64,000 nucleotides of DNA, from positions 62,001-126,000 of the forward strand of contig NZ_FQZE01000005.1 in NCBI RefSeq assembly GCF_900141875.1, read 5' to 3'. Of the stretch, positions 16,651 to 28,290 are shown in pieces. This DNA comes from Tangfeifania diversioriginum. GTDB taxonomy: Bacteria > Bacteroidota > Bacteroidia > Bacteroidales > Prolixibacteraceae. How positions within the stretch are numbered: the stretch's first letter is position 1; each line of letters begins with the position of its first letter. The notes below the pieces were generated by a model. That model did no database searches, had not been told where the DNA came from, and saw only the letters and a program-made list of their open reading frames with translations. Made by a program: the position numbers and the translations under genes.

Positions 16651-16702
16651 TTTTAGAATTTTTTGGTTATCAAACTAACCAATGGAGTGGGCCGGAGCCC
16701 GT

Positions 16703-16785
16703 TTGCCCTCCCTTCGCCGGCATTATCCGGATCAGGTTCAGTGGGTATAATCTCAGCCCTTAATTAATTAAGGCACCCCCATTGC
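16703..16785 (-). promoter_or_regulatory. TPP riboswitch (THI element)
   Basis: On the - strand the region reads GGGGGTGCC, an AT-rich P3 hairpin (TTAATTAATTAA), GGGCTGAGATTATACCC, ACTGAACCTGATCCGGATAA and TGCCGGCGAAGGGA. These are the conserved thi-box elements in correct order, including CTGAGA and ACCTGATCTGGATAAT-like segments that contact thiamine pyrophosphate. It lies in the leader of the TonB-dependent receptor gene, about 55 nt before its start, so TPP would repress that gene. Confidence 0.95.
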
Positions 16786-16797
16786 GTAATATCAGGA

Positions 16798-22868: not shown

Positions 22869-23126
22869 TTAGTCGTAATGAAACCGGCATTTGGCAATGA
22901 ATATCTCATTGTCTTTTACCTGATAAATTAAGCGGTGTTCGTTATCAATTCTTCTCGACCAGAAACCTTTGTATTTATGTTTCAATGGTTCGGGTTTTCC
23001 CAGACCATAAAAAGGATTTCTAGCAATATCTTTAAGTAACTGATTGATTCGTTTTAAAATACGTTTGTCGTTCTTTTGCCAGTAGAGGTAATCTTCCCAC
23101 GACTCATCAACAAAAACATATCTCAT
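22869..23126 (-). CDS. yoeB: YoeB-type toxin (mRNA interferase)
   Basis: The 85-residue protein is a full-length Txe/YoeB toxin: the DESWEDYLYWQKNDKRILKR start, GKPEPLKHKYKGFWSRRID with the catalytic Glu, HRLIYQ with an active-site Arg, and the C-terminal CRFHYD with the His-Tyr pair. YoeB cleaves ribosome-bound mRNA. It follows its antitoxin gene by 11 nt, in the standard yefM-yoeB order, and is followed after 11 nt by a housekeeping-type gene. Confidence 0.95.
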   Translation of the reverse strand: MRYVFVDESWEDYLYWQKNDKRILKRINQLLKDIARNPFYGLGKPEPLKHKYKGFWSRRIDNEHRLIYQVKDNEIFIAKCRFHYD

Positions 23127-23137
23127 GGGAGAGGTTT

Positions 23138-23392
23138 TTAAGGTTCAATCAAATCTTTTTGAACGGAATTCCCATTTCTGTATTTTTCGATGGCAGCATC
23201 CAGTCGTTGTTCATTCCTCCGGGAAGAAAGTTCATGTTGAGTTGCACGCAGAGAGTTGTATTCGTTTAACGACATAATGACAACCCCTGAATCTTTGCCG
23301 CGGTTAATAATCAGTGTTTCAAAGTTTTCGGTTACGCTATCGAGGTATCGTTTAATTTCTTTTCTAAAATCGGAAAGTGTTGTTGTAATCAT
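23138..23392 (-). CDS. yefM: YefM-type antitoxin (Phd/YefM family)
   Basis: The 84-residue protein has the Phd/YefM N-terminal DNA-binding fold (TTLSDFRKEIKRYLDSVTEN, then a segment GVVIMSLNEYNSLRAT) and a flexible acidic/basic C-terminal tail (YRNGNSVQKDL) that would wrap the toxin. Directly upstream lies a 24-bp palindrome with two TGTACA hexamers, the motif recognised by YefM in E. coli. Confidence 0.93.
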   Translation of the reverse strand: MITTTLSDFRKEIKRYLDSVTENFETLIINRGKDSGVVIMSLNEYNSLRATQHELSSRRNEQRLDAAIEKYRNGNSVQKDLIEP

Positions 23393-26385: not shown

Positions 26386-27681
26386 TTGAATTATTCTGAA
26401 ACACTTGATTATTTGTTTTCCCGTTTGCCCATGTATCAGCGGGTAGGGCCGGCGGCATACAAAAACAATCTCGATAATACTTTGCAGCTCGATAATTTTT
26501 ACGGGAACCCGCACCGGCATTTTAAAACAATTCATGTTGCGGGAACCAACGGAAAAGGATCGGTTTCGCACATGCTGGCGGCTATTTTACAGTCGGCAGG
26601 TTATAAAACCGGACTTTACACCTCGCCCCATTTAAAAGATTTCAGGGAAAGAATTCGGATTGACGGGAAAATGATTCCTGAAAACGAAGTGGTTAACTGG
26701 GTTGAGAATTACAAAGTTAACGATGAGTTGCAGAAAATTGAACCTTCGTTTTTTGAGCTTACCGTGGCCATGGCTTTCGATTATTTTGCAAACGAAAAAG
26801 TGGATATTGCCATTGTGGAAGTTGGGTTGGGGGGCCGGCTCGACTCCACAAATATCATCACCCCGGAAGTTAGCATTATTACAAATATCGGGTTGGATCA
26901 CACCGCCTTGCTCGGTGATTCGCTTGAAGCGATTGCAAAAGAGAAGGCCGGCATCATTAAAAACAAAATCCCGGTTGTTATCGGAACTACCCAGAATGAA
27001 ACACAACAGGTTTTTACGGAAAAAGCTGGCGAACTATATGCTCCACTGTATTTTGCCGATAGAGAATATTCAGTTCGTTATGCCATGAATGATTTTGACG
27101 GAAATCAGCTTTTGGCAGTTGAGAAAAACGGGAAGCAGATTTACCGGCACTTGAAACTCGATTTGAAAGGTGCTTATCAGCAAAAGAATTTGCCGGCGGT
27201 TTTAAAAACGCTGGAGTTCCTGAAAACCAAAGGCTGGGGTATTTCACAGGAAAATATTGAAACGGGGTTGGCTGAGGTCAGCAAACTTACCGGATTGCTG
27301 GGACGTTGGCAGGTTTTAGATGTCAATCCGCGCATCGTTTGCGACACTGCCCACAATGCCGACGGACTAACTGAGATTGTGAAGCAGCTGGAACAAACTC
27401 CATATAAAAAATTGCATGTTGTTTTTGGGATGGTGAACGACAAGGAGCCGGAGAAAATTCTGAAACTGCTGCCACAAAATGCAGCGTACTATTTCACTAA
27501 AGCGAATATTCCGCGTGCCCTCGATGAAAATGTTCTGGCAAAATATGCTGCTGGATTTGGGTTGAAAGGACAGGCTTTTTCGGATGTTAATGATGCTTAC
27601 AACGAGGCAAAAAAGAGTGCCGGAAAAGATGATTTTATTTTTGTGGGCGGGAGTACATTTATTGTTGCAGAAATTTTGTGA
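26386..27681 (+). CDS. folC: Bifunctional folylpolyglutamate/dihydrofolate synthase, TTG start
   Basis: The 431-residue Mur-ligase-type enzyme has HVAGTNGKGSVSHMLA (P-loop), YTSPHLKDFRERIRI, EVGLGGRLDSTN and, later, CDTAHNADGL. It adds glutamate to dihydropteroate and folates. The N-terminal NYSETLDYLF is the conserved family start, yet the only initiation codon for it is TTG at 26386; the first ATG (26431) would remove part of this segment. A TTG start is therefore likely and may keep expression low. It is followed by tRNA-Val. Confidence 0.94.
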   Translation: MNYSETLDYLFSRLPMYQRVGPAAYKNNLDNTLQLDNFYGNPHRHFKTIHVAGTNGKGSVSHMLAAILQSAGYKTGLYTSPHLKDFRERIRIDGKMIPENEVVNWVENYKVNDELQKIEPSFFELTVAMAFDYFANEKVDIAIVEVGLGGRLDSTNIITPEVSIITNIGLDHTALLGDSLEAIAKEKAGIIKNKIPVVIGTTQNETQQVFTEKAGELYAPLYFADREYSVRYAMNDFDGNQLLAVEKNGKQIYRHLKLDLKGAYQQKNLPAVLKTLEFLKTKGWGISQENIETGLAEVSKLTGLLGRWQVLDVNPRIVCDTAHNADGLTEIVKQLEQTPYKKLHVVFGMVNDKEPEKILKLLPQNAAYYFTKANIPRALDENVLAKYAAGFGLKGQAFSDVNDAYNEAKKSAGKDDFIFVGGSTFIVAEIL

Positions 27682-27687
27682 ATTATT

Positions 27688-27718
27688 TTTGCAGAACTGA
27701 AAATACGTTTTATATTTG
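27688..27718 (+). promoter_or_regulatory. tRNA-Val promoter (TTTG-N19-TATATTTG)
   Basis: A -33 TTTG at 27688-27691 and a -7 TATATTTG at 27711-27718 are separated by exactly 19 nt, a perfect Bacteroidota promoter, 43 nt before the tRNA. Confidence 0.8.
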
Positions 27719-27761
27719 CAGCGCCTTTGAGGAAAGGGGGCGCGTTCAGAGAAACATTATT

Positions 27762-27836
27762 GGGGGGTTAGCTCAGTTGGTTCAGAGCACCTGGTTTACA
27801 CCCAGGGGGTCACTGGTTCGAATCCAGTACTCCCCA
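27762..27836 (+). tRNA. tRNA-Val (anticodon UAC)
   Basis: A complete cloverleaf can be drawn. The acceptor GGGGGGT pairs with ACTCCCC (one G-U pair). The anticodon stem CCTGG/CCAGG encloses loop TTTACAC with anticodon TAC, and the T arm is CTGG-TTCGAAT-CCAG. The discriminator is A and CCA is not encoded. A Rho-independent terminator follows at 27848. Confidence 0.95.
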
Positions 27837-28256
27837 CAAGAAATTAAAGAGTTGCAAAGGTTGAAAGTTGCAGCTCTTTTTTTGTGGAAAGAAATAAGAT
27901 TCATCCGGGGTCGCTGGTTCCCTCGAAGAGATCCCTTCGGGAGAATCCAGTACTCCCCACAAGAAATTAAAGAGTTGCAAAGGTTGAAAGTTGCAGCTCT
28001 TTTTTTGTGGAAAGAAATAAGATTCATCCGGGGTCGCTGGTTCCCTCGAAGAGATCCCTTCGGGAGAATCCAGTACTCCCCACAAGAAATTAAAGAGTTG
28101 CAAAGGTTGAAAGTTGCAGCTCTTTTTTTGTGGAAAGAAATAAGATTCATCCGGGGTCGCTGGTTCCCTCGAAGAGATCCCTACGGGAGAATCCAGTACT
28201 CCCCACAAGAAATTAAAGAGTTGCAGAGGTTGAAATTTGCAGCTCTTTTTTTGTGA
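27837..28256 (+). repeat. 123-bp tandem repeats carrying the tRNA-Val terminator and an interrupted tRNA 3' half
   Basis: Units begin at 27837, 27960 and 28083, exactly 123 bp apart and nearly identical, with a fourth partial unit at 28206-28256. Each contains the terminator hairpin (AGAGTTGCAA...TTGCAGCTCT then T7), a spacer, and then GGGGTCGCTGGTTC...AATCCAGTACTCCCCA. The last part is the variable loop, T arm and acceptor 3' strand of tRNA-Val, but its T loop is split by a ~24-nt hairpin-forming insert (CCTCGAAGAGATCCCTTCGG plus a few nt). The long open frames across the array arise only because 123 is divisible by three. Confidence 0.93.
27848..27884 (+). terminator. Rho-independent terminator of tRNA-Val
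   Basis: AGAGTTGCAA pairs with TTGCAGCTCT (one mismatch) and is followed by T7. Copies recur in each 123-bp unit. Confidence 0.8.
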
Positions 28257-28290
28257 AAGTTTAGTTTTTTATAGCATCTCGGGATGTTGT

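Follow-up and report, generated by a model that had tools for sequence, protein, structure and literature searches.

The closest described counterpart of the locus considered here is found in Escherichia coli K-12, at the genes tyrT/tyrV (L308, NC_000913.3:1286000-1288200). The 178-bp rtT unit (RttR/tpr) is a 3' half of tRNA-Tyr with a split T loop, in which GGTTCG is followed by about 67 nt of hairpins and then by AATCC...CCA; the spacer between tyrT and tyrV is likewise an interrupted 3' half. A probe made of the 67-nt rtT insert gave matches in 4,680 of 5,426 complete E. coli genomes, at 1 to 9 places in each. No paper on rtT was found in the open-licence literature.

Tandem amplification involving tRNA genes is also known from phage T6, where the GIY-YIG nuclease SegB cuts within tRNA genes at the motif RAWTSGAAC, including those of its own phage, and drives tandem amplification of the tRNA together with segB; microhomology exists between the tRNA 5' end and the nuclease 3' end (PMC13096335). 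In fungal mitochondria (atp6, atp9, cox2 and nad3 of Glomus, and atp6 of Allomyces), a mobile endonuclease ORF brings a replacement 3' end of the gene, and the native 3' end is left downstream (PMC3630166). The available part of a survey of GIY-YIG proteins does not mention linkage to tRNA genes (PMC1564403). No paper tying chromosomal GIY-YIG genes to tRNA genes in Bacteroidota was found in the open-licence literature. Short scattered palindromes with a candidate enzyme nearby are represented by REP sequences with their RAYT transposases and by the palindromic elements of Rickettsia.

Structure of the tRNA-Val Locus

The window, i.e., the whole stretch of 64,000 nucleotides of Tangfeifania diversioriginum that was analysed, contains an intact tRNA-Val gene followed by a tandem array of interrupted 3' halves of the same tRNA, with the number of units given as in the draft assembly of 81 contigs. 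The features of the locus, in window positions, are as follows:

27688-27718, + strand: promoter-like site of the Bacteroidota type, TTTG-N19-TATATTTG, ahead of tRNA-Val (consensus match only)
27762-27837, + strand: intact tRNA-Val(TAC) (tRNA gene call; Rfam, 71 bits)
27820-27942, + strand: period 1, 123 bp, comprising tRNA 3' end, terminator, 23-nt spacer, GGGGTCGCTGGTTC and 22-nt hairpin
27846-27883, + strand: terminator-like hairpin and T run of the intact tRNA-Val (fold and sequence reading)
27907-27961, + strand: interrupted tRNA-Val 3' half, copy 1, with the hairpin insert at 27921-27942
27943-28065, + strand: period 2, 123 bp, identical to period 1 letter for letter
28030-28084, + strand: interrupted tRNA-Val 3' half, copy 2, with the insert at 28044-28065
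28066-28188, + strand: period 3, 123 bp, with a single substitution, located in the hairpin
28153-28207, + strand: interrupted tRNA-Val 3' half, copy 3, with the insert at 28167-28188
28189-28259, + strand: final partial period, comprising tRNA 3' end and a slightly diverged terminator

TRF delimited the array from 27820 to 28259, with a period of 123 bp, 3.6 copies and 98% matches, and 4 of the 71 positions of the last partial unit differ. TRF and unit alignment confirmed the three near-identical 123-bp units reported by the first-pass annotation, and sequence reading bore out its statement that the acceptor 3' strand and the terminator are retained and the 5' half is missing. Each unit keeps 14 nt of the variable loop and T stem (GGGGTCGCTGGTTC), the 19-nt 3' end GAATCCAGTACTCCCCACA and the 38-nt terminator, while the tRNA-Val 5' half is absent from every unit. 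The insert lies in the T loop, as had been described, but is exactly 22 nt long rather than about 24 nt and is bordered by GGTTC and GAATCC rather than TTC and AATCC; no tRNA letters are lost. Its sequence, CCTCGAAGAGATCCCTTCGGGA, fits the palindrome TCCCGA...TCGGGA only loosely. Read on the opposite strand, the SegB motif becomes GTTCSAWTY, which fits the T loop GTTCGAATC split by the insert. The hairpin unit folds with -27.3 kcal/mol (z about -3.6 against shuffles), and z of the whole unit is -4.3.

The locus is similar to E. coli rtT in having tandem units directly behind a tRNA gene, a 3' half with a hairpin-split T loop and an ORF across the repeats, but the tRNA, the insert and the bacterium are different, and there is no sequence kinship. 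The rtT units carry CCA and lack a terminator of the window type. A GIY-YIG gene is absent both from the window array and from the K-12 locus. The Rfam scan of the window at the gathering threshold detected only tRNA and TPP, and no rtT homology.

A frame of 192 codons (27678-28256, + strand) spans tRNA-Val and the entire array, similar to tpr at E. coli tyrT. The frame runs through the array because 123 bp correspond to 41 codons, and it was rejected as a real protein, having no Pfam match. Elsewhere in the window, a YefM/YoeB-type toxin-antitoxin pair (22869-23392, - strand) and a TPP riboswitch (16693-16790, - strand) are present.

Broken tRNA Copies in the Genome

At least 15 of the 43 tRNA genes of the genome adjoin a broken copy of themselves. 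For 14 of the 43, a partial copy of the gene's own 3' or 5' end was found nearby by a 12-mer criterion with at most one mismatch, against 0.26 expected; tRNA-Asp is the fifteenth. Broken copies accompany, for example, tRNA-Val(GAC), Ser(GCT), Gly(CCC) (x2), Tyr (x3, in 218-bp units), Ala, Gln and Thr, and upstream copies of the 5' type are found, for example, at tRNA-Asn, Leu(GAG) and two genes for tRNA-Met. Every copy is specific to its tRNA, fitting the acceptor stem of the neighbouring gene, and wherever a copy was examined, a palindrome or hairpin either interrupts its T, anticodon or D arm or takes the place of that arm. The inserts differ freely from locus to locus.

The 123-bp unit, for which a genome-wide search had been suggested at the first pass, occurs at no other place, and the two weak matches obtained are other tRNA loci with broken copies of their own tRNA. 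This speaks against a generic repeat, since the unit has no match elsewhere in the genome and other tRNA genes own tRNA-specific versions.

Palindromes are found also away from tRNA genes (37 in the genome, about 9 at tRNA loci). The 16-nt palindrome TCCCGAGTACTCGGGA that marks the tRNA-Asp array also makes up, exactly, the P3 helix of RNase P RNA (RF00010, E 3e-72; L242, C23:104249-104264), where an RNA helix may likewise have been replaced by a palindrome. The genome also contains an IS-like dispersed repeat in about 10 copies, which ends in TCCCGATAGTCATCGGGA and is often located at contig ends, e.g., C41:88689 (L294) and C42:93211 (L296).

GIY-YIG Genes in tRNA Units

Genes of small GIY-YIG nucleases were found at three other tRNA loci of the genome. 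At tRNA-Ser(GGA) there are two tandem units, and in each a complete GIY-YIG gene of 81 codons is enclosed by the tRNA 3' end and the interrupted copy. At tRNA-Asp there are several units, the last of which contains a GIY-YIG ORF of 83 codons, and at tRNA-Met a GIY-YIG ORF of 96 codons lies ahead of the broken copy. Matches to Pfam GIY-YIG have E of about 1e-17 for two of these ORFs and 3e-11 for the third. The catalytic residues Y6, Y17, G19, R27 and E63 are invariant in ten tRNA-linked proteins from loci other than the window array, and the nearest solved structures to the tRNA-linked proteins are UPF0213 (1zg2, E 5.7e-15) and SLX1 (E 1.8e-8), a structure-specific repair nuclease. The same layout is present in relatives at tRNA-Val, Asn and Gly, while tRNA-Arg in relatives shows its mirror image, in which the 5' half with a palindrome is followed by the ORF and then by the intact tRNA.

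Three parts make up the complete element: the host tRNA's 3' end, with the terminator being optional, a GIY-YIG ORF about 80-100 codons long, and another, arm-altered copy of the tRNA without its 5' end. In this other copy, a palindrome, often similar to TCCCGA...TCGGGA, interrupts or replaces the anticodon, T or D arm. Composed in this way, the element sits in a tRNA gene and leaves one intact tRNA. In the window array, an intact tRNA is likewise located beside partial copies of itself, and one arm, the T loop, carries a palindrome, as a loose match; the GIY-YIG ORF between the tRNA copies, missing here, is present at the three loci described above and in the relative G060.

Elements of this type share with SegB, a free-standing homing endonuclease of the tRNA region of phages T4/T6, the association of a GIY-YIG nuclease with tRNA genes and the tandem repetition of tRNA and nuclease. 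SegB, however, is phage-borne, and its tRNA copies are intact, with no palindrome-replaced arms, whereas the elements described here are chromosomal and encode a bare GIY-YIG domain of 80-100 aa. Similar to the mobile ORFs of mitochondria, they combine an endonuclease ORF within a gene with a replacement gene end. The mitochondrial cases concern organelle protein genes and are mostly of the LAGLIDADG type; their replacement 3' end differs from the native one, while here the two are nearly identical, and their leftover ends carry no palindromes. Unlike in the REP/RAYT systems, the palindrome here stands in place of a tRNA arm, and the gene linked to it encodes a GIY-YIG protein instead of a Y1 transposase.

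Several other GIY-YIG loci were observed. In the relative G014 (contig C3; L045, L062), tRNA-like copies whose anticodon arms are replaced form a large tandem array that includes two GIY-YIG ORFs. ARAGORN called several of the copies as tRNA-??? or as a false tRNA-Phe(aaa), and the annotation of tRNAs can be polluted in this way. Further GIY-YIG ORFs were found within interrupted genes at C49:118667-118879 (L101) and C23:99034-99246 (L102), one of the host genes apparently being a REP-associated Y1 transposase; these ORFs are flanked by the near-identical inverted repeats TACCCTGTCAAATAA and TACCCCGTGAAATGA and possibly represent a second, non-tRNA type of GIY-YIG element. At C79:20864-21088 (L099), a GIY-YIG ORF lies in the interspersed repeat TGTCATTTCGA...TCGAAATGACA, which also holds TCCCGAGTGCTCGGGA and a related hairpin.

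Distribution of tRNA-Linked GIY-YIG Loci

Scanning of public genome contigs with four tRNA-linked proteins yielded a set of 80 GIY-YIG loci, selected by similarity to those proteins. They belong to Bacteroidota, Ignavibacteriota, Fidelibacterota (Marinimicrobia), Cloacimonadota, Chlorobiota and Calditrichota, as well as to some Patescibacteria, with one record from Chloroflexota. Among the 51 testable loci, i.e., those with 1.5 kb on either side, a tRNA gene on the same strand was found within 500 bp in 42 cases (upstream in 39), compared with 1/51 for a tRNA on the opposite strand and 1/51 for a same-strand tRNA at 1000-1500 bp. A partial tRNA copy 3' of the ORF, recognised by a match to the 3' 12-mer with at most two mismatches, is present at 38 of 50 testable loci, one of which (L171) carries a full tRNA gene instead of a partial copy; several of the remaining 12 carry a tRNA copy with altered arms. 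A less biased, Pfam-ranked search showed a tRNA link for about half of the small GIY-YIG loci.

The palindrome T(C/T)CCG...CGGGA was detected 3' of the ORF at 47 of 74 loci, against 0.40 in dinucleotide shuffles and 0/67 at +800 bp. It mostly replaces the anticodon arm, in the arrangement AGAGC[A/G] - palindrome - [G/A]GGTC, while a tRNA-Asp group has it in place of part of the T arm. An independent pattern based on DNA only and blind to proteins, GAGC-R-TCCCGA-N(2-14)-TCGGGA-R-GGTC, matched 29 times, in 21 of the 395 Bacteroidota genomes, and its reversed control had no match; at 23 of these 29 loci a tRNA lies no more than 1.2 kb away, and a GIY-YIG gene is present at 16. The exact form of the pattern represents one subtype and occurs in only about 5% of the sampled genomes. 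A phage origin was considered and rejected, as a pattern search revealed no relative in viral contigs and the phage matches by tblastn are at most 42% identical and come from phages of other hosts.

Nuclease Lineages and Their Presumed Targets

On a tree of 93 GIY-YIG proteins, built from a short alignment with many forks open, 27 changes of tRNA type were counted, and 500 shuffles gave a mean of 43.7 and never fewer than 37; within Bacteroidota only, the count was 21, against 37.0 in shuffles. The replaced arm, for which a few labels were corrected by hand from the sequences, changes 7 times, against 15.1. Clades crossing phyla exist: Asp-linked proteins of Ignavibacteriota, Cloacimonadota, Calditrichota and Fidelibacterota cluster together. 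This distribution fits nuclease lineages that would each be tied to one tRNA and one arm, with shared descent at one locus contributing to the signal.

Empty and Filled Alleles at the Orthologous Locus

The orthologue of the window locus in relatives matches on the folC side, with about 70% identity. In the single-contig genome G037, two intact tRNA-Val genes and no broken units are present, while its congener G060 contains two intact tRNA-Val genes, three ORF-less units and one unit with a GIY-YIG gene; the flanks of the two are collinear, with 90% and 85% identity. The break is in the T loop in the window array, whereas the anticodon arm is replaced in G060, and a single common insertion event is accordingly not required. 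The state of the window, with one intact gene, three ORF-less units and no nuclease, reads as a later or parallel form.

Origin of the Array

The array of the window is probably a tandem nuclease-less form, non-autonomous or decayed, of the tRNA-nested GIY-YIG elements, and would have arisen through copying and amplification set off by breaks. The family link as such is well supported by the anatomy of the units, the genome context and the orthologous locus. Ordinary tandem duplication, in which a broken second tRNA-Val with a hairpin repeat was amplified together with its terminator by unequal recombination, with no nuclease involved and with neutral junk as the outcome, as at E. coli tyrT, would agree with the near-identical head-to-tail units, with the same anatomy of the rtT units, next to which K-12 has no nuclease gene, and with the ORF-less copies at several tRNA loci of the genome. 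Such an origin is unlikely, as it predicts neither the GIY-YIG ORFs in the same type of unit at three other tRNA loci nor the broad linkage of tRNA, GIY-YIG gene and palindrome and the tree signal. The assembler could also have expanded a single unit, the genome being a draft of 81 contigs with units 1 and 2 identical; this is highly improbable in view of the private substitutions in unit 3 and the last partial unit and of the similar arrays at other loci, within a 1.7-Mb contig of a relative and in complete E. coli genomes, and the architecture would hold even with one unit.

The units might instead be kept as a functional RNA locus, in which a hairpin-extended tRNA tail is transcribed and serves as a decoy for processing enzymes, a source of tRNA fragments or an rtT-like sRNA. 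The strong fold of hairpin and unit and the intact terminators are compatible with this, and E. coli rtT is annotated as sRNA in RefSeq. The consensus scan, however, with 9 matches in the window against 7.4 expected, placed no promoter-like site inside the array; the sole site is ahead of the intact tRNA and is separated from every unit by a terminator, since one follows tRNA-Val and each unit. Given also that the orthologous locus of G037 has no units and that the inserts vary freely between loci, retention as a functional RNA is rather improbable; the units may conceivably be a source of tRNA-half RNAs, a suggestion weakened by the same position of the promoter-like site and terminators. The first-pass annotation had further considered attachment-site scars or an integrase decoy. 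The tRNA 3' ends are classic attachment sites, and this is the part kept in the window units, as would be expected for tyrosine-recombinase elements (genomic islands, satellites) integrating there. Yet no integrase is encoded by the ten ORFs scanned close to the array, other loci retain the D arm or the 5' half, with copies reaching the D arm at many of them, and nearly all copies have an interrupted or palindrome-replaced arm, whereas simple attachment duplications are uninterrupted. Scars of the integrase type are therefore very improbable; the notion of scars left by a tRNA-targeting element holds for an element that looks like the GIY-YIG nuclease type, and the decoy found no support.

Proposed Mechanism

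The mechanism proposed for the nuclease-less form and its parent elements leans on the SegB and mitochondrial cases. The nuclease would cut within the DNA of one tRNA arm, the one seen as replaced afterwards, and homologous recombination between tRNA copies would insert or copy the element, with repair from donor DNA flanked by tRNA. Repeated breaks or unequal exchange between tRNA halves would lead to tandem amplification, and units that lose the ORF could persist as arrays, as in the window. In the leftover copy, the cut site, which in the window would be the T-loop motif GTTCGAATC, would be abolished by the palindrome, whose role is possibly that of a scar, of protection or of a nuclease substrate.

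The intact upstream tRNA-Val still has the T loop and the anticodon arm, i.e., the presumed target, and the usual homing logic, by which an element destroys its own target, thus fails to explain why this gene is not cut. Sequence-specific homing is also argued against by the nuclease itself, a bare catalytic domain with UPF0213 and the structure-specific SLX1 as its nearest solved relatives. It is a real possibility that the elements are a distinct class rather than a variant of the homing-nuclease elements nested in genes.

Significance

More broadly, and tentatively, the loci may represent a large undescribed class of chromosomal mobile elements of Bacteroidota and neighbouring phyla: minimal tRNA-nested GIY-YIG nucleases that restore the tRNA, mark the leftover copy with a palindrome in place of an arm, made or recognised by the nuclease or its repair pathway, and spawn nuclease-less arrays. 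E. coli tyrT/rtT, having the same anatomy, would be a distant relic of the same process, which offers a possible origin for the rtT repeats. In practical terms, such arrays may break assemblies and confuse tRNA annotation. The proposal predicts which tRNA arm would be cut by each nuclease, as well as a dependence of array length on the nuclease. Numerous tRNA fragments and stray small GIY-YIG genes, otherwise easily taken for noise, would share one cause under this proposal, which also suggests how a selfish nuclease may live within an essential tRNA gene without killing the cell.
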